In this document: positions 1 to 17,532 of the stretch, one piece after another | How the letters are laid out: every line of letters starts with the position of its first letter | Position numbering within the stretch: position 1 is the first letter of the stretch | Assembly (NCBI GenBank): GCA_026397695.1 | Contig: JAPLUJ010000324.1 | Coordinates: forward strand, 1-17,940 | Length of the DNA stretch: 17,940 nt | Origin: Verrucomicrobiota bacterium | GTDB taxonomy: Bacteria; Verrucomicrobiota; Verrucomicrobiia; Verrucomicrobiales; Akkermansiaceae | Direction of reading: 5' to 3' | Notes under the pieces: generated by a model | What the model was told of the DNA's origin: nothing | Database searches by the model: none | What the model saw: the letters and a program-made list of their open reading frames with translations, nothing else | Program-made: the position numbers and the translations under genes

Positions 1-2
1 TC

Positions 3-434
3 AACCGAGTCGAAGACGGCGGGCGAACAGCGCCGAGTGGGCTGAATTCCCAAGAGGTTAAACTTTATGTGGCGTTGCCACATGGATTGTTCCACTACGA
101 ACCGCTGGAGCATGGGCTTCAGCTCGTGATGACCGGCGACGTGCGTCGTCTCATTGGCTACAAGGATTTCGTTAGCACTGGAGCGTTGGACATGATCTAC
201 GTGGCTGACTATTCGCGGATGAATCTACTGCCAGCTGAGGATTGGGATGCCTTTGCATTGGCTGCCGCCGGCGCGATGACGCAGAACGTCTATCTTTACT
301 GTGCTTCCGTGGGACTCGGGACCGTCATCCGCTCTTGGTTTGATCGAAGTGCTTTGGCAAAAGAGTTAGGTCTGGGAGGAGACCGCAAACCCCTGCTGGC
401 GCAGACCGTAGGTATTGTGGCGAAAAGCAGTTAG
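3..434 (+). CDS. Nitroreductase-family (SagB-like) protein, C-terminal part
   Basis: The reading frame is open from the first bases of the window to a TAG at 432-434, so the N-terminus lies upstream. The start of the visible part (RTAPSGLNSQEVKLYVALP, then a Y-x-P-x-x-H stretch) and the later segment AAAGAMTQNVYLYCASVGLG match the FMN-binding fold of the nitroreductase superfamily, especially the SagB/thiazole-oxidoreductase-like branch, where the R-x-x-P-S segment contacts FMN and the second segment is a buried helix. Family members are NAD(P)H-dependent FMN oxidoreductases in the cytoplasm; the substrate cannot be read from sequence. GTG at 69 is an internal codon, not the start. The protein ends soon after a conserved VGIV-type strand, so its 3' end looks natural. 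The stop is followed immediately by decayed gene fragments. Confidence 0.8.
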   Translation, partial: NRVEDGGRTAPSGLNSQEVKLYVALPHGLFHYEPLEHGLQLVMTGDVRRLIGYKDFVSTGALDMIYVADYSRMNLLPAEDWDAFALAAAGAMTQNVYLYCASVGLGTVIRSWFDRSALAKELGLGGDRKPLLAQTVGIVAKSS

Positions 435-454
435 CAAACTCCGGGTGGAGCTGC

Positions 455-617
455 ACAACAGGTGGCCCACGGTCCCGGCTGGTAGTTTGGCACAGGCCTC
501 GTCCGTCGGTGCCAACACGGTTAGCGGTCATTCACCCGAGAACTCCCCAAGCAGATTCGCAGCGATGGTGGCCAGCAAGGTATTGAACCCACCCGCAGCC
601 GTGGCAGCATCGACCGT
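455..617 (-). pseudogene. FAS1 (fasciclin) domain fragment, decayed copy
   Basis: Read on the minus strand, this stretch aligns base by base with positions about 2222-2385 of the intact CIA30-FAS1 gene. It encodes ATAAGGFNTLLAT, then PLTVLAPTDEACAKLPAGTV, against PLTVLAPTDEAFAKLPAGTV in the intact gene. It carries a one-codon deletion and an in-frame TGA where the intact gene has a Gly codon (SGEGPLT becomes SGE-stop-PLT). Nothing of the signal peptide, the CIA30 domain or the second half of FAS1 remains. Similarity stops around 455, next to the nitroreductase 3' end, and around 617, where it joins a carH tail. It is a relic with no expected product. Confidence 0.85.
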
Positions 618-696
618 GGGCGACCTGCGCAAGCTGCTAACAAAGCCACCCGCAAGATCAGGCGTGAAGAAATATGCTCTGCAAACCGAACTCAGA
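618..696 (+). pseudogene. 3' tail of a CarH-like regulator gene plus its downstream flank, decayed copy
   Basis: This stretch aligns with positions about 4162-4252, which are the last codons of the intact CarH-like gene and some 40 bases beyond its stop. GACCTGCGCAAG here matches GACTTGCGCAAG in the intact gene, and CTGCAAACCGAACTCAGAAT matches CTGCAAGCCGAACCCGGAAT in the 3' flank. The stop codon is gone. It directly abuts the FAS1 fragment, so everything between the two genes and most of both has been deleted. Its orientation relative to the FAS1 fragment is the same as in the intact pair. Confidence 0.75.
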
Positions 697-764
697 ATTA
701 AACAGAACTATGAGTGGGCAAGCCAAGGCGCGGGTCGGAGAGTGGGGAAGTGCGTGATGACGGG

Positions 765-1415
765 TTACTTCCAGTTCAGCGCGGCGGCGCTCACCGGGAA
801 TTGTGTCATGAAAATCTTGCGGATGGCCAGGGCGATTTCCCGGTGTTCCTGTTGGGTGCTGTTGTCGGTGCGCACCTCCAGATAGTGGATCCAGCTTCTA
901 ACAGCACCCTTCATGTAGAGTTTCGTCCGGGTGCCAAGCGGCAGGAGCACCCGCGCGCACTCCTTGGCGATGCCTTTTTCCAGAGCGGTGTGGTACATGT
1001 CCATTGCCGACCGGGCAGTGCGTTCCTGCGCCGCGTCAAACCACTGGATGGTGGCAGCATCTAGATCGTTGAGCGAGTTCTGGCGGTTTTTGTCGTCCTG
1101 GCGGCGCGGTTGGTAGCGCTCGATTTCCTGTGCCTTGGCATAGCTTTGTGAGAACTCCTGGAACTGAAAACTCTTATGGCGGAGAATCTGCGGCGATATG
1201 GCCCTTGAGGTGACGATTTCAACGGTCATGTCCACCATTTCGAAAACGCTCCAGTGCTTATGCGCTATACAGTAGGCGAGCAGTTTCTCATAATCGAGCG
1301 TCTCCTGGCGCGGACTGGAGACCCGTGCGCAATAAGCGATCAGACCTTCGGGGGTGAGTGTCTGGTTCGCAACCTGGATGAGCGGGGCGGTGACGGAGAT
1401 AAGGCGCACTTGCAT
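765..1415 (-). CDS. thyX: Flavin-dependent thymidylate synthase ThyX
   Basis: A 216-residue protein of typical ThyX length. ThyX methylates dUMP to dTMP with methylene-tetrahydrofolate, FAD and NADPH. Family features are the N-terminal ARVSSP segment, HWSVFE (the H-x-S-x-F/x-E region), [17 protein letters not shown], the [15 protein letters not shown] segment and the C-terminal [20 protein letters not shown] block, which corresponds to the dUMP-binding and AQxEIR regions. The signature motif is unusual: the usual R-H-R reads R-H-K, and the usual S-x-R-Y reads S-Q-S-Y, so two of the conserved arginines are replaced; the Glu and Ser of the motif are kept. ATG at 1415 has no Shine-Dalgarno sequence but begins exactly at the conserved N-terminus. 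The gene is intact between two stretches of pseudogene debris. Confidence 0.92.
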
Positions 1416-1430
1416 GGGGTATTGGGTAAT

Positions 1431-3008
1431 TTATGTTAGAACTGGTCCCAGCCGCCGCAGACTTAAGCTAAACCATGCCGCAACGAAAGCAAGAAATCGA
1501 AGATCAGCTCTTGGAATACTGCAAACTCGACAAGCTGCTGATATATGGCACCCACTGATCGCGGTCATCGGGCGCTGGATCTGGAAATCCCCGGCGCAGG
1601 CATGGTTTTCCTGTTTGTTAGTTATTTCCTTGTGGTTGGCAGCGGGCAGGGCGGATGGGGAAATCGCGCCGGATCGCAGCGCGTAGCATTGAGGGGGGGG
1701 GTGATCGCCTGCCACGGCCCACCGGCCCTTCCCGCAGTATTGCCGCTCAGTCATCATTTTTTCAGGAGGACCCAAGCGCGGTCCAACCCCTTGCGCAGGA
1801 TCCAAGCCTGCTCGCGGGCCGACGACTCGGCACGCGCCGCGTTGAGCACCTGTGACTTGCAGCGCCTCACAGGTAACCTCATACAGCGCGGCACAAGCAG
1901 CCGCCTCACCTTGATTGAAAAAGGGCACACCCCGCTTGATGGCCAGTTCGATCAGCCCGGCAGGGCTGGGCGCGGCCGCTTCCGTGGTGGCCGGAATGAG
2001 CACTTGGTCGATCACGTGGATGATGCCATTGGAGGCTTGGATGTCAGCCGTAACCAGGGTCGCGGAACCGATCCGGACCCGTCCGTCCTCGAATCTAACA
2101 GCAACTTTCGATCCCTGCAAGGTGGTGCCCTCACGCAGTTCCAGGGCTTTGGCCAAAGTCACTTGGCCGGCAATCACGTGGTTCTTGAGGATTGCCACAA
2201 GCTGTCCACGGTTCTCGGGCTTCAACAGGTTGTCGACGGTCCCGGCAGGCAGTTTGGCAAAGGCTTCGTCTGTCGGTGCCAGCACCGTCAGCGGGCCTTC
2301 CCCCGAGAGCACCCCAACCAGGTCCGCAGCGGTGGCGGCGGCCAGCAAGGTTTTGAAGCCGCCCGCAGCCGTAGCAACATCGACCAGGGTTTTGCCACTT
2401 TTGGTGACCGCAGAGGCGGGTGCGGCTTCATCGCCGGTCGCCTTCACTGACTCGATCTCCAGCGAGAATGGACCAGCCTTTTTGTCCGCCAGGGTGAATC
2501 CGACCGACGTCACCGCCGCCGTGTTGATGGCCTTGAATGGAAGCACCCGCCCGAATGCCTGGAGTTTGAAATCCGTTAGCGGGATCCGGCTTTCACGCCA
2601 TTCCCCGGCGGTGGTGGGTAGGAAGGCCCGGTATGAGCTTGCTCCCATCTGGCCGGTCACCCGCAGTTCCACCCAATAGGTGCGGCCATCACCGCGCGCT
2701 TTCACGAGAATCGCGGACATGCCGGACAAGTCCAGTTTGCGCTCTTGGGTGCGGATCGAGGCAAAGCCGCCATTGTTTTCCAGCGAAATATCGCCGCTGA
2801 AAACCAAGGTCCCCTGCTCGGTGCGTTTGAAACCACCCTTGGAGACCCCGCCCATGACACCGTCATTAACGGAAGTCCAGAGCTTCAGCGAATCGGCCGC
2901 CGCAAAAGTAGCCAGGTCTTGTTGCGCCGCGAAAAGCGGCAATTGAGTTAAAAGCGCAGCCATGCCGACATGGAGGATCCAGCTGCGGGGCGTTGAATGT
3001 GGTTTCAT
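1431..3008 (-). CDS. Exported CIA30-FAS1 domain protein, frameshifted near its 3' end
   Basis: Start chosen at ATG 3008, where the protein begins with MKPHSTPRSWILHVGMAALL, a signal peptide ending near L-F-A-A; an upstream in-frame ATG at 3074 would bury it. About residues 30-195 form a CIA30-like domain (NDGVMGGVSKGGF, GDGRTYWVEL). About 200-340 is a fasciclin domain (TLVDVATAAGGF, GPLTVLAPTDEAFAKLPAGT, LKNHVIAG, NGIIHVIDQVLIP). A third domain follows (GLIELAIKRGVPFFNQGEAA, CAALYEVTCEAL). Near 1860 the frame slips: removing one base gives KSQVLNAARAESSAREQAW, then ILRKGLDRAWVLLKK and a TGA at 1754-1756, the natural-looking end. As sequenced, the frame instead runs through moaA debris to 1431. 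A periplasmic or surface role is likely; the function is unknown. It is divergent from the CarH-like regulator and may share its control. Confidence 0.8.
   Translation of the reverse strand: MKPHSTPRSWILHVGMAALLTQLPLFAAQQDLATFAAADSLKLWTSVNDGVMGGVSKGGFKRTEQGTLVFSGDISLENNGGFASIRTQERKLDLSGMSAILVKARGDGRTYWVELRVTGQMGASSYRAFLPTTAGEWRESRIPLTDFKLQAFGRVLPFKAINTAAVTSVGFTLADKKAGPFSLEIESVKATGDEAAPASAVTKSGKTLVDVATAAGGFKTLLAAATAADLVGVLSGEGPLTVLAPTDEAFAKLPAGTVDNLLKPENRGQLVAILKNHVIAGQVTLAKALELREGTTLQGSKVAVRFEDGRVRIGSATLVTADIQASNGIIHVIDQVLIPATTEAAAPSPAGLIELAIKRGVPFFNQGEAAACAALYEVTCEALQVTGAQRGACRVVGPRAGLDPAQGVGPRLGPPEKMMTERQYCGKGRWAVAGDHPPPQCYALRSGAISPSALPAANHKEITNKQENHACAGDFQIQRPMTAISGCHISAACRVCSIPRADLRFLAFVAAWFSLSLRRLGPVLT
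1475..1558 (+). pseudogene. Possible DUF2779 C-terminal remnant (very short)
   Basis: A short plus-strand frame of 27 codons, preceded almost directly by an in-frame TAA, encodes EIEDQLLEYCKLDKLLIYG. LLEYCKLDT followed by a hydrophobic helix is typical of the C-terminus of DUF2779 proteins, which have a nuclease-like fold. Only about 15 residues fit; after K-L-D the match breaks down and the frame runs into the end of the moaA fragment. I regard it as debris, or chance, rather than a gene. Confidence 0.25.
1549..1683 (-). pseudogene. moaA 3'-end fragment, decayed copy
   Basis: On the minus strand this encodes a decayed version of the C-terminal tail of the intact MoaA at 9476-10453. ALRSGAISPSALP aligns with ALRSNTIAASGLP, and AGDFQIQRPMTAISG with AGGFQVRRPMPAIGG. 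The functionally important Gly-Gly end is damaged (Ser-Gly) and the stop codon is lost (TGA to TGC). Similarity begins at the moaA stop codon and ends near 1683, followed by a run of nine G at about 1693-1701. The fragment stays open in the same frame as the upstream FAS1 gene, so it is read as the end of that reading frame. Confidence 0.8.
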
Positions 3009-3204
3009 GATTTTCGATTTTTTGGTTGGTTGTTTTGCAGTGGCTTCATGCCCGTCCGACGCTGCCGTCGCCAACGAACATGCGGATCTATCGTAGAGGA
3101 ATTGTCAAACGTCAAATTTTTTCTCAAATTATTTTCAGGCTGCCGTTCACAGCGCCGATTTATGCTGGTACTGGCTAATTCCCAATGGTCTATGGCTTGA
3201 ATGT

Positions 3205-3258
3205 GAAATATTCTGGATTTATTGTTTACACTGATCCGATTTATTGTAGAATATCTGT
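3205..3258 (+). promoter_or_regulatory. Array of 11-bp-phased direct repeats, candidate CarH-type operator
   Basis: The ten-base word GATTTATTGT occurs exactly twice, at 3216-3225 and 3238-3247, 22 bases apart. Stepping by 11 bases, the neighbouring units are GAAATATTCT (3205-3214, 7 of 10 matches) and GAATATCTGT (3249-3258, 6 of 10); the middle unit at 3227 is poor. The array lies just before the CarH-like start codon and overlaps both candidate promoters. Thermus CarH is known to bind head-to-tail 11-bp repeats covering its promoter as a tetramer, so the spacing is what that family would predict. The operator role is inference. Confidence 0.5.
3225..3252 (+). promoter_or_regulatory. Candidate promoter of the carH-like gene
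   Basis: TTTACA (3225-3230), a 16-base spacer and TAGAAT (3247-3252) resemble a sigma-70 promoter and lie within the repeat array. Transcription from it would start only a few bases before the ATG at 3266, giving an almost leaderless mRNA. An alternative is TTGAAT (3197-3202), 17 bases, TATTGT (3220-3225), which gives a leader of about 35 bases. Both would be blocked by a protein bound to the repeats. Confidence 0.4.
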
Positions 3259-3265
3259 CAAGAAA

Positions 3266-4213
3266 ATGCCTGACGCCCACCATCCCATTCAACTGGTCTC
3301 CCGCCTTACCGGGTTGAGCATGCATGTCATCCGGATCTGGGAGCAGCGTTACAATGCTGTGGAGCCGCAGCGGACCAGCACCAACCGGCGGCTCTATTCG
3401 CAGCAGCAGATCGAGCGGCTGAACCTGCTGCGCGAGTTGACCCAAGCGGGCTACAACATCAGCCAGGTGGCGCAGCTTTCCACTGGGAAGTTGCGCAAAC
3501 TCGTGCGGGAAAATTCCACCAGAATCCCCCATCCGGCGACTGAACACTCAACGACCGCACCGTTCCTCGACGAATGCGTGACCGCCGTCCAGTCCCTTGA
3601 TGCCCCCGCACTGAACGCAACTCTCAAACGCGCGTCAACCGCACTGGGCGCGATGGGATTGTTGCAGCGAGTAGTCGCGCCACTGGCCCAAACCCTTGGT
3701 GCATTGTGGCGCGATGGGACCATTACCGCCGCCCACGAACATTTCGCGTCGGCGGTGATGCGGGTGATTTTGGGCAATGCCGCCAAGTCCTCCGGGGCAC
3801 TGGAGCATGCGCCCGTTCTGATCGTTGCCACCCCGGCCGGGCAAGTCCATGAACTTGGCGCACTGCTGGTGGCGGCTACGGCGGTGCATTGCGGTTGGCG
3901 CGTCACCTACCTCGGTGCCAGTCTGCCGGCGGCGGAGATTGCCGGCGCGGCCCAACTCAGCCGGGCACGCGCGGTGGCCCTGAGCTTGGTCTATCCCGAG
4001 GACGATCCGCAACTCGAAGGCGAGTTAGTGCGTTTGCGCGAGGCCCTGCCGCCGCAAACGGCGTTGCTCGTCGGCGGACGCGCCATGTCCGCCTACCCGA
4101 AAGCGTTAGATAAAACAGACGCTGTCATGATCGACACTTTGGTACAACTGGGTTCGATTCTGGACGACTTGCGCAAGCCACATAACAAGGTCCCCCGCAA
4201 GCTCAAGCGATGA
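3266..4213 (+). CDS. MerR-family regulator with adenosylcobalamin-binding domain (CarH/LitR-like photoreceptor)
   Basis: A 315-residue protein. Residues about 6-75 are a MerR winged helix (PIQLVSRLTGLSMHVIRIWE, QRY, then NRRLYS). Residues about 100-175 are the helical cap and about 180-300 the Rossmann-type B12-binding fold. Key residues of CarH are present: W148 followed by nine residues and E158-H159 (the W-x9-E-H motif), and H195 in GQVHELG, the lower axial cobalt ligand. CarH/LitR proteins are tetrameric repressors in the dark and fall apart when light breaks the Co-C bond. The residue after the Trp is Arg, whereas Thermus CarH has His there, which becomes the second ligand after light. 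ATG 3266 was chosen over 3185 because the HTH starts directly after it and the promoter array lies before it. It is divergent from CIA30-FAS1 and convergent with the lipid operon. Confidence 0.88.
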   Translation: MPDAHHPIQLVSRLTGLSMHVIRIWEQRYNAVEPQRTSTNRRLYSQQQIERLNLLRELTQAGYNISQVAQLSTGKLRKLVRENSTRIPHPATEHSTTAPFLDECVTAVQSLDAPALNATLKRASTALGAMGLLQRVVAPLAQTLGALWRDGTITAAHEHFASAVMRVILGNAAKSSGALEHAPVLIVATPAGQVHELGALLVAATAVHCGWRVTYLGASLPAAEIAGAAQLSRARAVALSLVYPEDDPQLEGELVRLREALPPQTALLVGGRAMSAYPKALDKTDAVMIDTLVQLGSILDDLRKPHNKVPRKLKR

Positions 4214-4244
4214 AGGGAATACACCCTGCAAGCCGAACCCGGAA

Positions 4245-4769
4245 TTAAACACAACAACGGCATCTTTCATTAATCTTCCTTGCCACACCAAAGAGCAGGG
4301 GCAGGGCAATTGCCCAGGCGATGCCGATACCTATAAGACCTGCTGGCTCAGGCATCTGCGTCATGGCGTGCAGCTTTGCGCCGCTGTAATAGGCTATGGG
4401 CCCGCCGACCGCGCCGCAGACCGCGGCAAGTGCATACCGCCCGTGCAACCAGCCCATCGAAACATTGATAGTGGTGGCGAGGTTGACCCACAGCATGACC
4501 ATCCACAACGCAGTGAAAGGCACCGGGAATAGATCAGGAATCGGGGAGAACGCCCCTGCGGCGACAAGGACCGAATCGAGCACGAACCCCATAACAGCAG
4601 CGCATAGCGCGAGGATCAGTTCCGGCCGCCAGGCGGACGACAGCGCAAGATGAAGCGTGAGTCCGAGCGGGACTACGACGACGCTGAGCCATGGCATGCC
4701 GTTAGCAGCACCGAGCACCGCTGCGAACCATGCTGCCTGGAATGCAATAATGTTAATGATCTTGTTCAT
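4245..4769 (-). CDS. DUF2878 small integral membrane protein
   Basis: A 174-residue protein with about five to six hydrophobic helices. The N-terminal NIIAFQAAWFAAVLGAANG and the LGLTLHLALS segment are typical of DUF2878, a family of unknown function found beside the amine-oxidase/DUF1365/Cfa cluster. Its ATG overlaps the cfa-like stop in an ATGA arrangement, so it is the last gene of the operon and translationally coupled. Its last codons (RCRCCV) and stop lie in sequence that matches the 3' flank of the duplicated carH tail, so the original C-terminus may have been replaced at a junction near 4255. It ends 31 bases from the convergent regulator, with no obvious hairpin between them. Confidence 0.8.
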   Translation of the reverse strand: MNKIINIIAFQAAWFAAVLGAANGMPWLSVVVVPLGLTLHLALSSAWRPELILALCAAVMGFVLDSVLVAAGAFSPIPDLFPVPFTALWMVMLWVNLATTINVSMGWLHGRYALAAVCGAVGGPIAYYSGAKLHAMTQMPEPAGLIGIGIAWAIALPLLFGVARKINERCRCCV

Positions 4770-6034
4770 GGTCTGGCGGCAGTTGGCGCCGATGCCGGGA
4801 TATCCAGAGGCCGCGCGTCCGGCTTCACCAGGATCATCTGGACGTTGTTGATATAGCGTTCAAGGAACGCGCCCTCGCAGTAGCAGAGGTAATACTCCCA
4901 CATCCTGATAAAGGTTTCGGTATGGCCGAGATTCCGAATGGCGTCGATGTTCGCAAAAAACCGCTCCCGCCAGGCCAGCAGCGTCCGTGCATAATGCGGC
5001 GTGATGTCCTCAAGATGCACCAGGCGAAGATCCGATGCTTGTGCCACGGAGCGCGTAATCGCCTCGATGGACGGAATGAACCCGCCGGGAAAGATATAGC
5101 GCCGGATGAAATCGACCGAGCGGATTTGCGCCACATAGGCTTGGTCCGTGATGGTGATGGCCTGGAGCGCCATGATGCCGTTGTCTTGCAGGCGATCCGC
5201 GCAGACCCTGAAGTAGGTGTCGAGAAAATGGTGTCCCACGGCCTCGATCATCTCGATAGAAACGAGCTTGTCGTATTTACCGGTGAGGTCCCGATAGTCC
5301 ATGAACAAGAGTTCCACCTGTTGCGCAACGCCTTCCCGGATGATCCGCGCCTTGGCCCAGTCGTATTGATGTTGCGAAATGGTAGTTGTCGTGACCCGGC
5401 AGCCGTAGTGCTTTGCCGCATGGATCGCGAACCCGCCCCAGCCGGTGCCGATCTCGAGCACATGGTCATCCGGCGTCAAGGCCAGTTTCCTGCAGATGCG
5501 GTCGTACTTGGCTGTTGCCGCGTCCTCGAGCGTTGCGTTGTTGTGCTCGAAGATGTTGCAGGAGTAGGTCATGGTGGCATCGAGCCAGAGGCTATAGAAG
5601 TCATTGCCCAAGTCGTAGTGTGCCGCGATGTTCTTTTTACAGCCCGCCTCGGTGTTTTTTCTGATGACATGCATCACCCGGTACAGGGACTGCATGAACG
5701 CAGCCAGTCCGCGCTCGATGTCCATGAGCACGCGGCGGTTCAGCACGATGATCCGGACGAGCGCGGTGAGGTTATCGGCAGACCAGAACCCGGCCATATA
5801 TGCCTCGCCTGCGCCGATGCTTCCGCCGAACGCCAGATCGGTGTAGAATGCCCGATCATATACCGTGATCGTCGCAGTGAGTCCGCCCGTTGTGCCGAAG
5901 GTCTGGTGGCGGTCCGCATTTCTCAGGTTAGAGAAGACCGCACTGCGGGCAAGCCCGGTGAGCATGCCCGCAAGGCCGCGCGGCACGCTGCGCATAGCGG
6001 TTTTGTGATGGGATGGGATGACGGAACCACTCAT
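4766..6034 (-). CDS. Cfa-like SAM-dependent phospholipid acyl-chain methyltransferase
   Basis: A 422-residue protein of the cyclopropane fatty acid synthase family. The SAM-binding motif VLEIGTGWGGFA lies at about 192-203, and NIAAHYDLGNDFYSLWLD and FIRRYIFPGGFIPS are family signatures. Of the residues that hold the catalytic bicarbonate in E. coli Cfa, Cys (C159 in TYSCNIF), Glu (E264 in IEMIEAVG) and Tyr (Y348 in PHYARTL) appear kept, but the His is Gln (Q291 in ALQAITITDQAY). Cfa enzymes add a methylene from SAM across a double bond in membrane phospholipids; members of this amine-oxidase-linked subgroup may instead make methyl-branched unsaturated chains, as UfaM does in furan fatty acid synthesis. 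This assignment is inference. The gene is fifth in the six-gene operon. Confidence 0.9.
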   Translation of the reverse strand: MSGSVIPSHHKTAMRSVPRGLAGMLTGLARSAVFSNLRNADRHQTFGTTGGLTATITVYDRAFYTDLAFGGSIGAGEAYMAGFWSADNLTALVRIIVLNRRVLMDIERGLAAFMQSLYRVMHVIRKNTEAGCKKNIAAHYDLGNDFYSLWLDATMTYSCNIFEHNNATLEDAATAKYDRICRKLALTPDDHVLEIGTGWGGFAIHAAKHYGCRVTTTTISQHQYDWAKARIIREGVAQQVELLFMDYRDLTGKYDKLVSIEMIEAVGHHFLDTYFRVCADRLQDNGIMALQAITITDQAYVAQIRSVDFIRRYIFPGGFIPSIEAITRSVAQASDLRLVHLEDITPHYARTLLAWRERFFANIDAIRNLGHTETFIRMWEYYLCYCEGAFLERYINNVQMILVKPDARPLDIPASAPTAARP

Positions 6035-6067
6035 GGGATATGACTTCGGAACAAGCGGATATCGATG

Positions 6068-6811
6068 TTAAGCATGCCCATAGAAAGGAACACCCTTCCT
6101 CCAGAGTCGGAAGGCCTGCCAGTAAATACCGATGATCACTTGGAGCGTAATCATCGGATACTTGAGCAGCATCTGCCTGAGCGAGGTTCCGGTCATCTCC
6201 CTTCGCTCCGCTGTTAGCTCAGCCTCGAAAATCCTGCCCTGCCCGTCAAAGTTGCTCATCTGGACGTTCACCGTGATTCCCGGTTCGGTGAATGCCCATT
6301 CATAGTCCAGTTCCATTGGCATGAACGGCGATACCGTGAAATCTTTCTTTAGCCGGAATTGTTTCTGCTGTTGCGTGCCGATATTGTCCCGTTCATCCAC
6401 GACATAACAATGAACCTCGCCCCACGGTGTGTTGTGCACCTCTACCACGATGGTCTCAACCCTGCTGCCGGCGGCATCGTAGCAGTAGTAGAAGGTGGCG
6501 GGATTGAAGTAGTGGCCCAGATACCGCAGGTGCGTCATCATCCTCACAGGCCCGGCCGGCAGGTTGCCGGTCCTCTGCCGGACCAACTCGCGTACGGCTG
6601 CGTCGAGCGTCAGCGACGGGTTGCCAAAATGGTCTTTTCTGCGCAGCCACGCGAGGTTGGCGCCCTTGGTCGACCAGAGCAGCCGGCGGTCGAACACGGT
6701 ATCCAGTTCTGCCAAGTCCAGATACAGGAAAAAGAGCGAATGGCGGAAGCTGTTCTCCCTTGGTCGGTAACGGGCATGACGGATCACACCTTCATAAATG
6801 CAGCTATTCAT
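6068..6811 (-). CDS. DUF1365 family protein
   Basis: A protein of about 247 residues. NSCIYEGVIRHARYRPREN at the start, FRHSLFFLYLDLAEL, the YLGHYFNPATFYYCYD core and VEVHNTPWGEVHCYV are hallmarks of DUF1365, whose members nearly always sit between an FAD-dependent amine-oxidase-like gene and a Cfa-like gene. The biochemical role is not established; the context points to acyl-chain modification at the membrane. The C-terminus (LKYPMITLQVIIGIYWQAFR) is amphipathic to hydrophobic and could lie on the membrane. ATG 6811, two bases after the upstream stop, is preferred to a TTG at 6817 that overlaps that stop. Confidence 0.88.
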   Translation of the reverse strand: MNSCIYEGVIRHARYRPRENSFRHSLFFLYLDLAELDTVFDRRLLWSTKGANLAWLRRKDHFGNPSLTLDAAVRELVRQRTGNLPAGPVRMMTHLRYLGHYFNPATFYYCYDAAGSRVETIVVEVHNTPWGEVHCYVVDERDNIGTQQQKQFRLKKDFTVSPFMPMELDYEWAFTEPGITVNVQMSNFDGQGRIFEAELTAERREMTGTSLRQMLLKYPMITLQVIIGIYWQAFRLWRKGVPFYGHA

Positions 6812-6813
6812 GT

Positions 6814-8058
6814 TCAAAGTGTTTGCTCAAAGTAACTGCACGCCGCCAGTGCGCTCTTCACCCCGTCCTCATGAAACCCGTAACTCCAGTAGGCGCCGCA
6901 GTAGTGGGTCCGGTTCCTGCCGCTGATCTCAGCGTGGCGCTGCTGTGCCGCTGGCGCGGCCATCGTATACTGGGGATGGTGGTAAACATAGGTGCCGATC
7001 ACCTTCTCTGCGGCGATTGCACCAGGCAGGTTGAGCGTAACGCAGAACTCCTCGGAGGACCTGATCGACTGTAGGATATTCATGTCATAGGTGAGCACCG
7101 CGCGGCCTGATGAATTTCCCGGGATGTAGTAGTTCCAGCTCGCCCAGAGTTTTCGCCGATGCGGCAGGACAGCCGTGTCGGTATGCAGGACGGCCACGTT
7201 TTGCTGGTATGGGAACGCGCCGAGAACCTCGCGCTCAGCTGGCGTCGGGTCCGCGAGCAGGGCCAGGGCCTGGTCGCTGTGGCATGCCATTACCACATGA
7301 TCGAATAGCTCCACGGAGCCACCCGCCGCAATGACCTTGACATGATCCGCCGAGCGCTGCACAGACCGCACAGGAGCATTGAGGCGGATCCGATCCCGGA
7401 ACGAGGCAATCAGTGGATCGACATAGCGGGCTGACCCGCCGGTAATGACCTTCCACTCGAAGGGATTGCTCACCTCCAGAATGCCGTGGTTCAAAAAAAA
7501 CCGGGCGAAGGTACATAGTGGGAATTCCTCCACGGCTGCGGGACCTGCTGACCAGATGGCGGCCGCCATGGGGATCAGGAAAAAGTCGAGGAAGCGCTTT
7601 GAATATCCGCGGGAACGAAGATACGGTACCAACGGACGCTCATCAGCTCCTTCCTCTATCAGGCGTGTTAACTCTCCCCGCAGGCGCAGGATGTCCCGAA
7701 CCATGGCATAGAACGACGGGTCTAGCAGGTTTCTGCGCTGGCCGAAGATAGTATTGAGATTATGGGCGCTGTATTCACGGCCCTCGGGCTCGGATCTGAG
7801 GCTGAAGGTCATCTGCGAGGGCTGGTACGCCACGCCAAGACGTTTCATGAGCTTCAGGAAGTTCGGGTAGGTGACCTCGTTGAATACGATGAAGCCGGTA
7901 TCCACGTTGTACCGTTTTCCTGCCCGTTCCACCTCCACCGTATGCGTGTGTCCGCCGATATAGTCGTTTGCTTCGAAAACCGTGATCTCATGGTCCCCGT
8001 TCAGGAGATAGGCCGACACCAGCCCGGAGATGCCACCACCGATGATCGCTATTTTCAT
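6814..8058 (-). CDS. FAD-dependent amine-oxidase/desaturase-like flavoprotein
   Basis: A 414-residue protein starting with the dinucleotide-binding motif IAIIGGGISGLVSAYLL and an E-A-N-D-Y-I-G-G-H segment that binds the FAD ribose, typical of NAD(P)-binding Rossmann amine oxidases (COG2907). VDTGFIVFNEVTYPNFLKL is characteristic of the branch found with DUF1365 and Cfa. The C-terminal YCGAYWSYGFHEDGVKSAL holds the second FAD contact. In this gene context the likely substrate is a fatty acyl chain: in alphaproteobacteria a desaturation step (UfaD) precedes furan ring formation. I cannot tell from sequence whether this protein performs it. It lies 18 bases downstream of DUF2177 and its stop abuts the DUF1365 start. 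Confidence 0.88.
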   Translation of the reverse strand: MKIAIIGGGISGLVSAYLLNGDHEITVFEANDYIGGHTHTVEVERAGKRYNVDTGFIVFNEVTYPNFLKLMKRLGVAYQPSQMTFSLRSEPEGREYSAHNLNTIFGQRRNLLDPSFYAMVRDILRLRGELTRLIEEGADERPLVPYLRSRGYSKRFLDFFLIPMAAAIWSAGPAAVEEFPLCTFARFFLNHGILEVSNPFEWKVITGGSARYVDPLIASFRDRIRLNAPVRSVQRSADHVKVIAAGGSVELFDHVVMACHSDQALALLADPTPAEREVLGAFPYQQNVAVLHTDTAVLPHRRKLWASWNYYIPGNSSGRAVLTYDMNILQSIRSSEEFCVTLNLPGAIAAEKVIGTYVYHHPQYTMAAPAAQQRHAEISGRNRTHYCGAYWSYGFHEDGVKSALAACSYFEQTL

Positions 8059-8076
8059 GTCATCGTAGTATTGTTT

Positions 8077-8493
8077 TCACTTCAGCCACCGATCGAGATA
8101 TGCTGCCGCGAGGGTCCCCACGGCGTTCAGGAATCCGCCCCAGCAGATATCGACGAGTGATATGCGGAGCGGCCAATCCCGCAGCAGTGAATAATTCGTC
8201 ATATCGTAAATGGTGTAAACGATGATGCCGTACAGAGCGCCCCAGCACAGGCTCGATACAACCGGATTATCCGGCGAGACCCGAGGGAGGGCAAAGAGCA
8301 CGATGCCTGCGGGAATGGCGACATAGACGACCAGGGCCGCCCAGATGACCGGCTGCATCGAATCGCCGGACATCCGGAGGAAACCGCCAAGGTCCTTTTT
8401 GTACAGACTGGATGCGAATATGCCGAGCCAGATGAAGTCCAAGGCGAAGAGGATCGGGGGAAGAACAAGCAGGATTTTAATTGAATGCCACAT
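8077..8493 (-). CDS. DUF2177 membrane protein
   Basis: A 138-residue protein with four hydrophobic helices. FALDFIWLGIFASSLYKKDLG near the N-terminus and the YTIYDMTNYSLLRDWPLRIS block, then VDICWGGFLNAVGT, are typical of DUF2177, a family of unknown function. ATG 8493 is chosen because the hydrophobic helix follows at once and an AGAGG sequence lies at a normal distance upstream, one of the few clear ribosome sites in the window. A longer frame reaching 8589 would overlap the DUF1295 gene. It is the second gene of the lipid operon, 22 bases after DUF1295. Confidence 0.87.
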   Translation of the reverse strand: MWHSIKILLVLPPILFALDFIWLGIFASSLYKKDLGGFLRMSGDSMQPVIWAALVVYVAIPAGIVLFALPRVSPDNPVVSSLCWGALYGIIVYTIYDMTNYSLLRDWPLRISLVDICWGGFLNAVGTLAAAYLDRWLK

Positions 8494-8515
8494 GGTTTGC
8501 CTCTGTTTCTGTTGG

Positions 8516-9286
8516 TTATGTCTTGGGGAGCAGCGGGAAAAACGCGCTTGTCTGCTGCCGGTATTTTTCGAATTCAGGATTGCCTTCATACTTCTTTTCG
8601 AGCATGGGGATGCCCGAAACCCTGAGGATCAGAAAGGTGATGGCAAGCGGTCCGATGATGACAGGCCATGCCGCGCCTGCAGCAAGGGCTATCAGATATA
8701 TTCCCCACCACAGGGTCACTTCACCAAAGTAGTTCGGGTGCCGGCTGTAACGCCAAAGCCCGCGCATGATGATCCTTCCCTTGTGGGCGGCGTCTTGCTT
8801 GAATCTGAGAAGCTGCCAGTCACCTATTACCTCAAACAGGAAGCCCATGGTCCAGATGAGCAGGCCAGCAGCATCAAGCATCGTCCAGGGTGAACTATCC
8901 GCCATAATGACCGAGGTAACCGGCAGTGCTATGACAAGGAGCAGTAATCCCTGGAGCAGAAACACTTGGAAGTATGCACGGATGTTTGCGTTCCTGCCCC
9001 ACTCCTGTCTCCATGCGCGGTAGCGTTCATCCTCGCCTTTCACCCTGTTCCGCAGGTAGACATGCAGGGACAAACGCACGCCCCATATAATGACAACCGC
9101 CATGACAAGATATGCCCGGGGATTGAGATTCTCACTCACCGCGGCCGCCGCGAGCGCGGAAATCATGAAGCCGGGACCCCATGCGATATCCGCAATGTCG
9201 AATCTTGACATAGTCCGGGCAACAAGAAACCAGAGAGTCATATAGATGACGATAATTGCAAGCTGAATAAGCATTACATGCATCAT
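8516..9286 (-). CDS. DUF1295 (steroid 5-alpha-reductase-like) membrane protein
   Basis: A 256-residue polytopic protein. The signature GLWRYSRHPNYFGEVTLWWG lies in the C-terminal half and is the NADPH-binding segment shared with steroid reductases and isoprenylcysteine methyltransferases; FDIADIAWGPGFM near the N-terminus is typical of DUF1295. Members reside in the inner membrane and are predicted to reduce or modify lipid-like substrates. As the first gene of the operon it is directly downstream of the candidate promoter at 9344-9372. ATG 9286 is followed by further in-frame ATGs at 9283 and 9274, so the exact start is uncertain by a few codons. Confidence 0.88.
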   Translation of the reverse strand: MMHVMLIQLAIIVIYMTLWFLVARTMSRFDIADIAWGPGFMISALAAAAVSENLNPRAYLVMAVVIIWGVRLSLHVYLRNRVKGEDERYRAWRQEWGRNANIRAYFQVFLLQGLLLLVIALPVTSVIMADSSPWTMLDAAGLLIWTMGFLFEVIGDWQLLRFKQDAAHKGRIIMRGLWRYSRHPNYFGEVTLWWGIYLIALAAGAAWPVIIGPLAITFLILRVSGIPMLEKKYEGNPEFEKYRQQTSAFFPLLPKT

Positions 9287-9343
9287 GACAATCCATTGGT
9301 TAGGGTGGCGGCCTGCCGCAAGATGAAATCAAACAACATCGAC

Positions 9344-9372
9344 AGGATAATCCTGCAGCCGGCACAATTCAA
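9344..9372 (-). promoter_or_regulatory. Candidate promoter of the lipid-modification operon
   Basis: On the minus strand, TTGAAT (9372-9367), a 17-base spacer and TATCCT (9349-9344) form a plausible sigma-70 promoter, with transcription starting about 50 bases before the DUF1295 ATG. The upstream side reads TTTTTATTGAAT, so the TTTATTG core of the repeats before the carH-like gene overlaps this -35 element. The shared core is suggestive, but this region is AT-rich. Confidence 0.35.
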
Positions 9373-9475
9373 TAAAAATAATGACTGCCGGAAAATCGCC
9401 TTGGGGGTTGGCGCGCATGAGCAAGGTGGGGATGCGCGTTCCAATGGCCGGGGATCAAAGCAGTCCGCACGGGAT

Positions 9476-10453
9476 TCACCCGCCGATCGCGGGCATCGGG
9501 CGCCTGACCTGGAAACCCCCGGCGAAGGTGTGGCTTTCCGGCTTGTTAGATATCGCTTGGTGGATGGCTTGCGGGAGACCGGATGCCGCGATTGTGTTAG
9601 ACCGCAGCGCGGGCAGCAGGTCGATTTCGCCGTGGCGGCCGAGGCACGGGCGGAGTTTGCCGTCGGCGGTGAGGCGCAGTTTGTTGCAGGTGGCGCAGAA
9701 ATCCGCGCAGGTGATCGATCCGATGAAGCCGACCAGCGCGCCGCTGTGGCGCAGACGGAAATACCGGGCCGGGCCGTGGCCGACGGCTTGTTCACTAGCA
9801 GGATCCAGTTGGTCATGGGCGGCCAGGCGCGCCATGGCCTCGGCGATGGAGAAAAAGTGATTGTCATTGATCGGTCCGCCGGGCGCGAGAGGCATTAGTT
9901 CGATGAAACGCACCGGCATGCCGCGGGCGGCACCAAATTCGACCAGCGGGATGATTTGCTCGTCGTTGATGCCGCGCAGCAGGACACAGTTGAGTTTGAC
10001 GATCTCGAAGTTGGCGGCGGCGGCTGCGGCGATGCCATCAAGGGCGGCTTGGAGCCGTCCTCCTGTGAGTTTCTGATAGGCGGCGGGATCGAGCGTATCG
10101 AGGCTGATATTGATCGAGCGCGCCCCGGCTTGTTTGAGCGGCAGGGCGAGATCTGCGAGGCGGATTCCGTTAGTAGAGATGCCGAGCGCCTGCACTCCGG
10201 GCAGGTCCCAGATGCGGCGGGCGATCTCGACGATGTCGTGGCGGACCAGAGGTTCGCCGCCGGTGAGGCGGAATTTCCGGAACCCATGATCCGCCGCACA
10301 TGCGACAATGCTGACGATTTCATCGGCAGTTAGATGATCATTGCGTTGTGTCCAGCCCGGGTAGTTCACCGGCATGCAGTAGAGGCAGCGCTCGTTGCAG
10401 CGGTCGGTGACCGAGATGCGGAGGTAATCGATGTGGCGGCTGAAGGGATCCAT
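9476..10453 (-). CDS. moaA: GTP 3',8-cyclase MoaA (molybdenum cofactor biosynthesis)
   Basis: A 325-residue radical SAM enzyme that converts GTP to 3',8-cyclo-7,8-dihydro-GTP, the first step of molybdenum cofactor synthesis. The N-terminal cluster motif is C19-x3-C23-x2-C26 (DRCNERCLYCMP). KFRLTGGEPLVR binds SAM, and a second, C-terminal cluster is held by CADFCATCNKLRLTADGKL and the following RPC. The protein ends in the conserved Gly-Gly tail (PMPAIGG) needed for radical transfer, so it is complete. It starts 18 bases downstream of the TauE/SafE gene and is probably co-transcribed with it. No other moa genes are in the window. The last 45 or so codons have a decayed second copy at 1549-1683. 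Confidence 0.95.
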   Translation of the reverse strand: MDPFSRHIDYLRISVTDRCNERCLYCMPVNYPGWTQRNDHLTADEIVSIVACAADHGFRKFRLTGGEPLVRHDIVEIARRIWDLPGVQALGISTNGIRLADLALPLKQAGARSINISLDTLDPAAYQKLTGGRLQAALDGIAAAAAANFEIVKLNCVLLRGINDEQIIPLVEFGAARGMPVRFIELMPLAPGGPINDNHFFSIAEAMARLAAHDQLDPASEQAVGHGPARYFRLRHSGALVGFIGSITCADFCATCNKLRLTADGKLRPCLGRHGEIDLLPALRSNTIAASGLPQAIHQAISNKPESHTFAGGFQVRRPMPAIGG

Positions 10454-10471
10454 GGGGGTGGAGATGCGAAT

Positions 10472-11221
10472 TCAGATGGTCACGAATTTCGCAGCGGCGA
10501 CAAGCAAAACCACCGCCAGCGAGCGTTTCAAGGCGGGAACTCCGGCTCGCTTGCTGCCCCAGGATGAACCCAACCATCCGCCGATCATCACAACGGGCAG
10601 CAACTGCCAGGTAACGGGCGGAATGGCGCCGCCCTTGACGATGAAACCGGAGAGACCGGCCAGCGAATTCGCGAGAATGAAGGCGGCGGAGACGGCGGCG
10701 GCGGGTTTTGCCGGGGTCCAGCGGAACAGAATCAGCAGTGGTGTTAGAAAAATCCCGCCACCGATGCCGATCAGGCCTGATAGAAATCCGAGTGACAAGC
10801 CGAGCACCAGCAGGGTGGGCCACTGCGGTTCGCGGGTGAGCGTTTCAGCGGTATTGCCACTGAACGCCAGCCGCCACGCCCCGCAGACGAGGGTGGCGGC
10901 GACGATGATTTTGAAGATCGGATCGGGGGATTGCAGCCAGCCGCCGATGAATGCGGCGGGCACCGACGCCGCAGCCAGCGGCCAGAACAAGCGGGCGCGG
11001 AAATGTTGCGCACGCGCAAACATCACCAGCGCCAGCAACGAAACCGCGATGTTGAGAGTGAGCGCGATGGGTTTCATCTCCACCGGAGCCATGCCCATGA
11101 ATCCCATAACCGCAAGATAGGCAGACGCCCCGCCATGCCCGACCGAGGCATAGAGCGCCGCCGCGAGAAAAAACGCGCAGCAAAGCACCGGTAGCTGAAT
11201 AATGGAAAGGATGTCGCACAT
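10472..11221 (-). CDS. TauE/SafE family anion exporter, membrane permease
   Basis: A protein of about 249 residues with seven to eight hydrophobic helices. It shows the two inverted-repeat signatures of the TauE/SafE family (COG0730): ALYASVGHGGASAYLAVMGF in the first half and LSGLIGIGGGIFLTPLLILF in the second. Members export sulfite, sulfoacetate or related organic anions; the substrate cannot be deduced. ATG 11221 is preferred to an upstream start at 11275 because the first transmembrane helix follows immediately. It is first in a two-gene unit with moaA. A possible link is a molybdoenzyme that handles sulfur oxyanions, but no such enzyme is visible. Confidence 0.88.
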   Translation of the reverse strand: MCDILSIIQLPVLCCAFFLAAALYASVGHGGASAYLAVMGFMGMAPVEMKPIALTLNIAVSLLALVMFARAQHFRARLFWPLAAASVPAAFIGGWLQSPDPIFKIIVAATLVCGAWRLAFSGNTAETLTREPQWPTLLVLGLSLGFLSGLIGIGGGIFLTPLLILFRWTPAKPAAAVSAAFILANSLAGLSGFIVKGGAIPPVTWQLLPVVMIGGWLGSSWGSKRAGVPALKRSLAVVLLVAAAKFVTI

Positions 11222-11269
11222 GCCAGTCACAGTCGTCACTGCGGCGGAAAACTTGTCGTCGTTCCCACA

Positions 11270-11461
11270 TTGCACAAGAAAAACAATTCGCTCGAAGACA
11301 TGCCCCAGCTTGAAGCGTCCGGCCGCATGGGGATTTCACGCCAGACCTTCAGCCGCATTCTGGCCCGGGCGCGCCAAACCGTGGCCACATGCCTAACCCG
11401 GGGCATGGCGGTACGCATTGAAGGCGTGGTGGTACATCTTGACGCCGCCCCCAAAACATGA
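11270..11461 (+). pseudogene. DUF134 (UPF0251) DNA-binding protein, N-terminally truncated remnant
   Basis: The 63-codon frame contains EASGRMGISRQTFSRILARA, a helix-turn-helix matching the C-terminal half of DUF134 proteins, and RGMAVRIEG, which matches the conserved K-A-L-R-I-E-G end. The N-terminal half of the family (the P-R-K-x-R x V segment and the D-E-x-E-A-x-R-L block) is missing, and upstream in-frame sequence shows no similarity to it. The only starts are a TTG at 11270 and an ATG at 11300, neither with a ribosome site. It lies 69 bases upstream of cydA. It could be a small functional HTH protein, but truncation is more likely. Confidence 0.55.
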
Positions 11462-11530
11462 CGAAGCTAACGCAGGCATCCGCAGCCATCATCCACCGGC
11501 CGACAAAAATCCCTTTACGGTTTCCGCCCC

Positions 11531-12955
11531 ATGAACGTTGAAATGTTAGCGCGCATCCAATTCGCCTTCACGGCGGCCTTTCACTATCTCTATCCACCGT
11601 TGAGCATCGGGCTGGGGGTCGTGCTGGTCATGATGGAGGGGATGTGGCTGCGCACCCGCAAACCGCTCTATCACAACATGGCCCGCTTCTGGACCAAGAT
11701 TTTCGGCCTGATCTTCGGCTTGGGGGTGGCCACCGGCATCGTGCTGGAATTCGAGTTCGGCACCAACTGGGCCACCTACTCGCGCTTCGTCGGCGATATT
11801 TTCGGCAGCGCACTGGCGGCGGAAGGCATCTTCGCGTTTTTTCTTGAATCCGGGTTTCTGGCGATTCTGTTATTTGGTTGGGACAAAGTGGGACGTAAAC
11901 TCCATTTCTTTGCCACCTGCATGGTTGCGCTCGGGGCGCATTTCAGCGCGGTCTGGATCATTGTGGCCAATTCATGGCAGCAAACGCCGGCGGGGTCCCA
12001 CCTTGAAATCGGTGGCCAGCCAGTGCCCTTGGGGCACGCTTTCGAAGCCGCCGATCTGGGCCGGGCGCGCATGGTCATCGATGATTTCTGGGGCGTGGTG
12101 TTCAACCCGTCGTCGATGGACCGGCTCAGCCACACCTTGGTGGCCGCATGGCTGGCGGGCGCGTTTCTGGTTATCAGCGTGGCCGCCTTCTATCTGATCC
12201 GGCGGCGCCACGTCACGTTTGCCGCAACCTCCCTCAAGTTCGGCCTGGTGCTGGCGATGGCCGCTTCGCTGCTATCCCTGGTCACCGGGCATAGCTCCGC
12301 AGGCGGGGTGGCCAGGAACCAACCGTCGAAGCTGGCGGCGATGGAGGGTATCTGGCAAACCGGCGCGGCGGCGCCGCTACATCCCTTCGGCTGGGTGGAC
12401 ACAACTCACAGGCACACGGTCGGACCGAAGATTCCGGCGGGCCTGAGTATGTTAGTTGGAGGACGCAGCGATCATGCGGTTACCGGCCTGAATGATATTC
12501 CGAGGGATCTGCGCCCGCCGGTGCAGCTGACCTTCCAATGTTTCCATATGATGGTTGCTATCGGATTTGCCCTGATTGCCATGTCGCTGTGGGGCGGATG
12601 GCTGTGGTGGCGGGGGAAACTTGCCGACACGGAGCATTTCCTAACACGCTGGTTTTTGTTATTTTCTGTGCCTTTGGTGCTGCTCCCGCAAATCGCCAAT
12701 CAAGCCGGTTGGTTCACGGCGGAAATCGGCCGCCAACCGTGGATTGTCTGGGGTTACCTGCGGACCAGCGACGGCCTGTCGGTGGTGGTCAAGGCCCATC
12801 AGGTGCTGACCTCGCTGATCGGCTTCGGCTTGATCTATCTGCTATTGTTGGTGCTCTTTCTCTTCCTGCTCAATCGCAAGATCCAACATGGTCCCGAGCC
12901 GCTGGAAGAAAGCCACGAACTCCCTGACAACTGGCTCAAACAAAGCCGCGCCTGA
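11531..12955 (+). CDS. cydA: Cytochrome bd quinol oxidase subunit I
   Basis: A 474-residue inner-membrane protein, shorter than the E. coli subunit (522) and of the short-Q-loop type. H18 in AFTAAFHYLYPPLSIG corresponds to E. coli H19. E98 and E106 (AAEGIFAFFLESG) match the E99/E107 pair. RLSHTL holds the heme b558 His, and CFHMMV the Met ligand. In the Q-loop, QPSKLAAMEGIW keeps the Lys and Glu needed for quinol oxidation, and GRQPWIVWG is present. The enzyme oxidises quinol and reduces oxygen to water with high affinity, often under low oxygen or stress. It is co-transcribed with cydB. ATG 11531 has no Shine-Dalgarno sequence but gives the family N-terminus. Confidence 0.95.
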   Translation: MNVEMLARIQFAFTAAFHYLYPPLSIGLGVVLVMMEGMWLRTRKPLYHNMARFWTKIFGLIFGLGVATGIVLEFEFGTNWATYSRFVGDIFGSALAAEGIFAFFLESGFLAILLFGWDKVGRKLHFFATCMVALGAHFSAVWIIVANSWQQTPAGSHLEIGGQPVPLGHAFEAADLGRARMVIDDFWGVVFNPSSMDRLSHTLVAAWLAGAFLVISVAAFYLIRRRHVTFAATSLKFGLVLAMAASLLSLVTGHSSAGGVARNQPSKLAAMEGIWQTGAAAPLHPFGWVDTTHRHTVGPKIPAGLSMLVGGRSDHAVTGLNDIPRDLRPPVQLTFQCFHMMVAIGFALIAMSLWGGWLWWRGKLADTEHFLTRWFLLFSVPLVLLPQIANQAGWFTAEIGRQPWIVWGYLRTSDGLSVVVKAHQVLTSLIGFGLIYLLLLVLFLFLLNRKIQHGPEPLEESHELPDNWLKQSRA

Positions 12956-12983
12956 ACCCCTCAAGTTAGAACCCCTCAAGTTA
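12954..12983 (+). repeat. Perfect 15-bp tandem repeat at the cydA-cydB junction
   Basis: The unit GAACCCCTCAAGTTA occurs twice without a gap. The first copy begins inside the cydA stop codon and the second ends on the A of the cydB ATG. The duplication enlarges the gap between the genes to 27 bases; with one copy it would be 12. Confidence 0.95.
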
Positions 12984-13999: not shown

Positions 14000-14114
14000 A
14001 ACGCCGCCAAACCCCGCAGCCGACACCGGAAACCCTCAGTTTGCTGCATCTTTCATTAGCCCAAAGGGGTTTGGTCCCAAAGACCGGGGTTGGAGCACCG
14101 CCTATGCACCCGAA

Positions 14115-15209: not shown

Positions 15210-15217
15210 GGTCTGTC

Positions 15218-17528: not shown

Positions 17529-17532
17529 AGTG

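Follow-up and report, generated by a model that had tools for sequence, protein, structure and literature searches.

A CarH-like B12 regulator paired with a CIA30-FAS1 gene, beside a putatively acquired furan-fatty-acid-type operon in a Verrucomicrobiota bacterium

When a B12-dependent photoreceptor gene sits between the gene of an exported protein and a lipid-modification operon, does it control one of its neighbors, or both? The question is raised by contig JAPLUJ010000324.1 of a Verrucomicrobiota bacterium of the Akkermansiaceae (assembly GCA_026397695.1; 4.53 Mb, 759 contigs, 82.8% complete), of which we analyzed positions 1 to 17,940, the whole stretch being referred to here as the window. 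In it, a CarH-like regulator lies head to head with a gene encoding a CIA30-FAS1 protein and tail to tail with a six-gene lipid operon, and an earlier note on this DNA had read the three as one light-controlled system. We consider it probable that the locus holds two side-by-side modules of different origin, a CarH-FAS1 light switch and an acquired furan-lipid operon without direct CarH control. The pairing of CarH with FAS1 is supported, recurring in 20 of 40 loci. CarH control of the operon is not supported, as no operator was found for it, the genes are convergent and the operon appears foreign.

Domain matches of all eight genes (the regulator, CIA30-FAS1 and the six operon genes) exceed the curated Pfam cut-offs, so that each gene identity proposed earlier is borne out, and open reading frame positions agree with both orientations described. 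The putative light switch is made up of three features:

1431 to 3008, minus strand: CIA30-FAS1 gene (CIA30 and Fasciclin domains, Pfam), ATG at 3008, 77-82% identity to close relatives
3009 to 3265, no strand: divergent intergenic region with degenerate CarH-type 11-bp repeats at 3091-3131 and 3244-3265; many relatives have strong repeats, those of the window lack significance
3266 to 4213, plus strand: CarH-like regulator with MerR_1, B12-binding_2 and B12-binding domains, Wx9EH and QxHxxG motifs (Pfam, PDB match, motif reading)

The start at 3008 and the minus strand of the CIA30-FAS1 gene are as first described, whereas 1754, given then as its other end, is not a stop and the frame continues to 1431.

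The top PDB sequence matches of the regulator are 3whp and 5c8d, the latter named CarH. Its Wx9EH motif is complete (W148, E158 and H159), and H195, the fourth residue singled out earlier, is also present. We read 34 CarH proteins for these motifs, the window protein included and L129 not among them; Wx9EH is preserved in 32, with Arg replacing His in L009 and L016. The B12 motif of the regulator is QVHELG, which keeps H195 and G198 but has Gln where the published ExHxxG has Glu, a substitution found in 31 of the other 33 proteins, and the H195 position is kept among the proteins read, with Cys in L011 alone. In Thermus CarH, the His after the motif Trp turns into the upper ligand in the light, creating a bis-His adduct, as described in PMC8156234. 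The regulator has Arg at that residue, and therefore a light adduct of the Thermus type could not form in the same way. Taken together, the domains and motifs support a CarH-like B12 regulator, predicted to bind adenosylcobalamin (AdoCbl) and to act as a repressor.

The pairing with FAS1 was followed across 40 distinct verrucomicrobial CarH loci with upstream sequence, made up of the window, 19 homolog loci, L067, 14 genus or order relatives and five new loci from a phylum sample. Dropped before counting were L012, L018 and L021 (without upstream sequence), L024 (Niastella, 29%), L141 (same contig as L016) and L064-L066 (same contigs as L003-L005), while the near-identical pairs L008/L009 (98%) and L117/L118 (97%) were kept. 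In half of these loci, a FAS1 gene diverges from CarH within ~1.1 kb, and the genome co-occurrence search suggested earlier accordingly favors FAS1 as a CarH partner. The partner is a CIA30-FAS1 gene in the closest relatives (the window, L002, L003, L005, L006 and L067) and a FAS1 gene without a CIA30 match in L007, L008, L009, L011, L014, L015, L117-L121, L140, L143 and L144. Because each genome has at most five FAS1 or CIA30 matches (E<=1e-20), we estimate that chance would create far fewer than one such pair. Our literature searches, one of them judged from a listing of titles only, returned no published report of a FAS1 gene paired with CarH.

The intergenic DNA of the relatives carries readable operators. 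A motif derived de novo upstream of the CarH genes, and again after retraining without the window, is TTGTCTAAnT in 11-bp steps, the reverse complement of the published CarH repeat nAnnTnnACAn. Its copies lie mostly in a cluster near -175 to -145 and in a pair near -22/-11. When only the published repeat is used for scoring, 23 of the 40 CarH upstream regions have a tandem pair at P<=0.05 (19/35 loci plus 4/5 of the new phylum-sample loci) where ~2 are expected, the related loci not being independent, and 18/35 loci have an 11-8-11 quad at P<=0.05. The P values of these scans come from approximate dinucleotide resampling, while dimer scores were compared with single-base shuffles within 200-bp blocks. 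The Pseudomonas LitR operator, T(G/A)TACA-N12-TGTA(C/T)A, was tried and set aside: the window has no match to it at <=2 mismatches with its spacing, and what fits in the relatives is the CarH 11-bp repeat.

The FAS1 gene is thereby a likely CarH target, and the two form the best-supported and recurrent functional pair of the locus. In this old verrucomicrobial light switch, as we picture it, AdoCbl-bound CarH would in darkness sit on the 11-bp direct repeats of the intergenic region and so repress both carH and the divergent FAS1 gene. Light would break the cobalt-carbon bond and release CarH, allowing the secreted FAS1 protein, here CIA30-FAS1, to be made, which may provide photo-oxidative protection through adhesion or carotenoid binding. 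The N-terminus of the window protein is hydrophobic and, by eye, export-signal-like. In a PDB search, its FAS1 domain matches human TGFBI and periostin best (E to 4e-47), with 1w7d at 3e-32 and 8c18 at 1e-15, the last being AstaP, a photoprotective carotenoid-binding FAS1 protein (PMC10147662). A carotenoid ligand is disfavored here, as no crtI-family protein scores over the cut-off in the bacterium's own genome (83% complete). FAS1 had been offered as a possible new partner, but FAS1 proteins are already known in photo-oxidative regulons. RSP_1409, a fasciclin protein of R. sphaeroides, goes up with singlet oxygen alongside cfaS, phrA and RSP_1090/1091 (PMC7074977), and a FAS1 protein of Azospirillum brasilense is linked to flocculation and under RpoE-ChrR control (as cited in PMC10949492, in whose own strain the fasciclin gene is unexpressed).

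Other CarH neighbors, read by eye from translations, are a photolyase in L002 and crtI-like genes in L005, L014, L016, L017, L019 and L023. The window's own genome (83% complete) has no match to PF03441 photolyase, and although resemblance to L002 raised the thought that remains of a photolyase start might follow CarH, the agreement covers ~13 bases only and is not relied on. Sigma-factor-like genes, again by eye, lie near CarH in L011 (4053-5114) and L019 (8754-9848), bringing to mind LitR-LitS of Streptomyces. In L024, from a Niastella metagenome-assembled genome, FAS1-domain matches at 6433-7251 lie ~2.8 kb upstream of the 29%-identical CarH relative.

On the other side of the regulator lies the lipid operon, with its flanks:

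4161 to 4255, no strand: carH 3' end plus 42 bp, duplicated in diverged form at 617-708 (score 101, maximum of 100 shuffles 38); left edge of the putatively foreign block
4245 to 4769, minus strand: DUF2878 protein, last operon gene (Pfam)
4766 to 6034, minus strand: Cfa/CMAS-family methyltransferase in the UfaM position (Pfam CMAS; gene order as in R. palustris)
6068 to 6817, minus strand: DUF1365 protein, the domain of UfaO (Pfam; 78-79% to Nitrospirota-labelled proteins)
6814 to 8058, minus strand: flavin adenine dinucleotide (FAD)-dependent oxidoreductase (Amino_oxidase/NAD_binding_8) in the UfaD position (Pfam, gene order)
8077 to 8493, minus strand: DUF2177 protein (Pfam); start near 8493 picked by eye, the listed reading frame reaching 8589
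8516 to 9286, minus strand: DUF1295 protein, first operon gene (Pfam)
9287 to 9476, minus strand: expected operon promoter region, in which no CarH operator was found, holding the right edge of the putatively foreign block (motif scans, edge comparison)
9476 to 10453, minus strand: moaA, 65-77% identity in 7/36 same-genus relatives

Neighboring operon genes overlap or stand within 35 bases of one another, and a single promoter is therefore expected in 9287-9475. The DUF1365 protein scores 263 bits against a Pfam cut-off of 25 and is adjoined by the FAD-type oxidoreductase and the Cfa-like protein, whose assignment as UfaD and UfaM follows families and gene order, not comparison with the Rhodobacter or Rhodopseudomonas proteins. 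The earlier proposal of a furan-fatty-acid-type gene set agrees with both families and order and is supported, furan chemistry being the predicted outcome. FAD would then be UfaD, DUF1365 UfaO and Cfa UfaM, joined by DUF1295, DUF2177 and DUF2878, and the operon, expressed from its own promoter, would yield methylated furan acyl chains acting as singlet-oxygen scavengers. Possible, if doubtful, is a product with cyclopropane or methyl-branched, rather than furan, acyl chains, in which case FAD and DUF1365 would have some other substrate. The Cfa protein matches solved cyclopropane synthases, enzyme functions here are predicted from the genes, and the native operons of the order have a second Cfa that the window operon does not; this is countered by the FAD-DUF1365-Cfa order, which is that of RPA2571-2570-2569 (UfaD, UfaO and UfaM, UfaO being the DUF1365 protein), described in PMC7380195 as necessary and sufficient for furan fatty acid in R. 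palustris.

Related operons in Proteobacteria were compared in five plasmid neighborhoods out of 122 and 98 matching records. The core FAD-DUF1365-Cfa-DUF2878 lies beside MerR and phrB in Aeromonas and Salinivibrio and beside sigma/ChrR in Pseudoalteromonas, with Azospirillum likewise having sigma/ChrR and no DUF2878 listed. As proposed before, operons of this type are in general linked to regulators of the LitR-type MerR or ChrR kinds, and these clusters show it, except in a Cupriavidus plasmid, where operon genes stand beside a TetR regulator and a photolyase. DUF2878 is rare in Verrucomicrobiota (7/288 genomes); it is not a new partner, since it already follows Cfa in Aeromonas, Salinivibrio and Pseudoalteromonas. 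In the literature, light-inducible LitR-linked Pseudomonas clusters are described with phrB and ufaM, plus SDR (short-chain dehydrogenase/reductase) and FAD genes in P. mendocina (PMC9758184), a V. cholerae DUF2878 gene is annotated in the PhrR (MerR) regulon (PMC12971978), and an Aeromonas predicted operon with FAD, DUF1365, cfa and DUF2878 is published (PMC10012899). DUF2177 often adjoins heliorhodopsin genes, another light-linked context (PMC11109279).

Sequence comparison points to a foreign origin of the operon. DUF1365 is present in 27 of 59 genomes, the window's own included, at 27-38% identity elsewhere, and 63 of 387 Verrucomicrobiota genomes have a match (E<=1e-20), none but the window's own exceeding 39%. 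Against the database, the top group for DUF1365 stands at 76-82% (P0002-P0058) and for the FAD protein at 76-81% (P0122-P0165), and the organism labels in these groups, among the matches listed, are Nitrospirota only (P0039 at 79% and P0046 at 78% for DUF1365; P0145 at 78% for FAD). A 99% identical FAD protein, P0121, was taken as the window's own or from a near-identical assembly and may be the same organism. In a FastTree phylogeny of 49 DUF1365 sequences (34 taken from the 120 listed and 15 from Verrucomicrobiota, with one of the latter chosen as root), the window protein falls inside a group without verrucomicrobial sequence, with 0.97 support for the enclosing clade and some weak inner nodes, and all 15 verrucomicrobial sequences lie outside it. 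Loci were compared for 16 of the 26 DUF1365 matches outside the window, and these native genus and order loci have FAD-DUF1365-Cfa in 16/16 and the order FAD-DUF1365-Cfa-x-DUF1295-Cfa2 in 15/16. A Nitrospirota-like donor is suggested, with transfer presumably into the verrucomicrobial lineage.

The edges of the block can be located from duplicated flanks. Window positions 617-708 are a diverged copy of the carH tail plus 42 bases (4161-4255; score 101 against a shuffled maximum of 38), preceded by a FAS1 fragment at 456-615 (82% over 163 bases), and positions 1549-1683 are a diverged copy of the moaA tail (9477-9611; score 130 against a shuffled maximum of 37). One copy has thyX (765-1415) between the carH and moaA tails, the second has the lipid operon there, and it is these paired copies that define the edges. 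On the simplest reading, the operon was horizontally acquired as a discrete block and inserted, or exchanged, between carH and moaA. Among the 36 same-genus relatives, the seven with moaA have it on a contig other than that of CarH where both exist.

Could the regulator nevertheless govern the operon? That CarH represses FAS1 and the lipid operon together in the dark, with light freeing both, is unlikely at this locus, even though the arrangement has parallels. In 3/40 loci, the divergent neighbor of CarH is a native ufaDOM-type operon, with a perfect 10/10 repeat pair and 17/20 quad in L139, a 10/10 pair in L022 and no significant repeat in L013 (pair P 0.08); in L113, DUF2878 is followed by a MerR-type gene that matches a B12 domain weakly, and in L114 by a similar gene (by eye); and the Pseudomonas clusters above are light-inducible and LitR-linked. 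In the window, by contrast, no CarH operator was found upstream of DUF1295 in 9287-9475 (dimer -3.4; P 0.5 for a pair, 0.41 for a triple and 0.91 for a quad), the genes are convergent and the block is apparently foreign. Nor is the CarH-operon neighborhood conserved: none of the four same-genus genomes with an orthologous CarH (67-72%; genomes 86-96% complete) has DUF1365 at E<=0.001. Two further genus members, G022 and G033, have DUF1365 and a CarH at 45%, and in the ten genomes besides the window's own that hold both DUF1365 and CarH, an operon gene is found in 0/10 of the CarH stretches. A strict repeat-pair search in G000 gave 0 matches, as did its control, with a pattern that would also miss the window's own degenerate site. 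Light-to-lipid logic thus seems to exist elsewhere in the phylum, in native CarH-facing ufaDOM-type operons, while CarH in the window shows no sign of direct control of its lipid operon and probably exerts none. L114 also has a CIA30 protein (1783-2346) near its FAD-DUF1365-Cfa-DUF2878 operon and putative MerR gene; CIA30 and FAS1 are thus each found on their own in the vicinity of genes of this kind. A chimeric contig bearing another organism's operon is highly improbable, for although the operon sequence is foreign-like and the assembly has 759 contigs at 83% completeness, both flanks are genus-type (carH 67-72%, moaA 65-77%), the edges coincide with the diverged duplication of the carH and moaA tails, and base composition counts neither for nor against it (operon 0.53-0.59 guanine plus cytosine, other window genes 0.57-0.63).

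Several observations weigh against two modules of different origin as we have described them. The CIA30-FAS1 reading frame changes near residue 385 (window 1750-1870), with a stretch missing relative to L002 and L003 and residues resembling their CIA30-FAS1 tails found in another frame past residue ~385; both domains lie before the change and are intact. The pairing is not strict, as CIA30-FAS1 homologs of 62-74% occur on contigs without CarH in G017, G026, G046 and G058. The regulator scores 102.7 bits, below the NCBIfam TransRegCarH equivalog cut-off of 400, and for this reason is named CarH-like. No significant repeat pair is found in 17/40 CarH loci, including all seven of L123-L129, and the repeats between carH and FAS1 in the window are degenerate copies that fall short of significance (P 0.34 for a pair, 0.32 for a quad), with the -22/-11 pair as best dimer at 8.7 against 8.6 elsewhere and a shuffle 95% level of 13.1. 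For the operon, the failed motif search leaves room for weak or indirect control, the donor label depends on three named proteins, and the root of the DUF1365 tree was a matter of choice. Base composition was dropped as a sign of foreignness because it does not mark out the operon from other window genes (carH, FAS1 and moaA 0.61-0.63; thyX, MIP, cobW and cbiO 0.57-0.58).

More tentatively, CarH in Verrucomicrobiota may mainly switch secreted FAS1 proteins, with photolyase, carotenoid genes and furan-lipid operons gathered next to CarH as interchangeable modules of photoprotection, and the borrowed operon here might be under, or coming under, weak or indirect CarH control. CarH is best known from carotenoid control, and recurrent pairing of CarH with FAS1, together with operators that can be read, would add a second kind of output, a secreted protein, to B12 photoreceptors; our literature search found no publication on a verrucomicrobial CarH photoreceptor. 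Native CarH-facing furan-lipid operons, L139 being the best case, would allow the light control of furan lipids to be tested beyond Proteobacteria, and the window places such an operon in a phylum where close relatives of it were not found among 387 genomes.

Beyond these genes, the window holds cytochrome bd oxidase subunits I and II at 11531-13999, divergent from a TauE/SafE gene and moaA. Positions 14115-17910 encode a CobW-type GTPase, an MIP channel, a CbiO-like ATPase, a CbiQ-like transport protein and a partial methyltransferase, possibly a cluster for the transport of a metal or vitamin, sharing the window with the B12-binding regulator. Rfam (gathering scores) and tRNA searches of the window gave no matches, and counts of sigma-70 promoters and terminators in it equal those of shuffles and were therefore not used.

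How does this locus compare with known systems? With CarH of Thermus thermophilus, Bacillus megaterium and Myxococcus, the regulator has in common the MerR helix-turn-helix, the B12 domains and Wx9EH, and the window's relatives share the 11-bp direct-repeat operator, the differences being Gln for Glu in ExHxxG and FAS1 as the neighbor in half of the loci. The FAS1 proteins of sigma-E/ChrR regulons (RSP_1409 and that of Azospirillum) have, as here, a single FAS1 domain and a tie to photo-oxidative stress, while the CIA30 fusion and the B12-regulator neighbor set the window protein apart from these, from adhesion FAS1 proteins and from AstaP. The UfaD-UfaO-UfaM pathway (RSP1091/1090/2144 in R. 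sphaeroides; R. palustris) shares its FAD oxidoreductase, DUF1365 and Cfa-like methyltransferase with the window, whose operon has DUF1295, DUF2177 and DUF2878 in addition and no ChrR/sigma-E gene seen in the window. Finally, the gammaproteobacterial cluster MerR-phrB-NTF2-SDR-FAD-DUF1365-Cfa-DUF2878-DUF3833 (Aeromonas, Salinivibrio) has its regulator co-directional, where that of the window is convergent, and carries phrB, NTF2, SDR and DUF3833 where the window operon instead has DUF1295-DUF2177 in front, around a core FAD-DUF1365-Cfa-DUF2878 whose order is the same in both.

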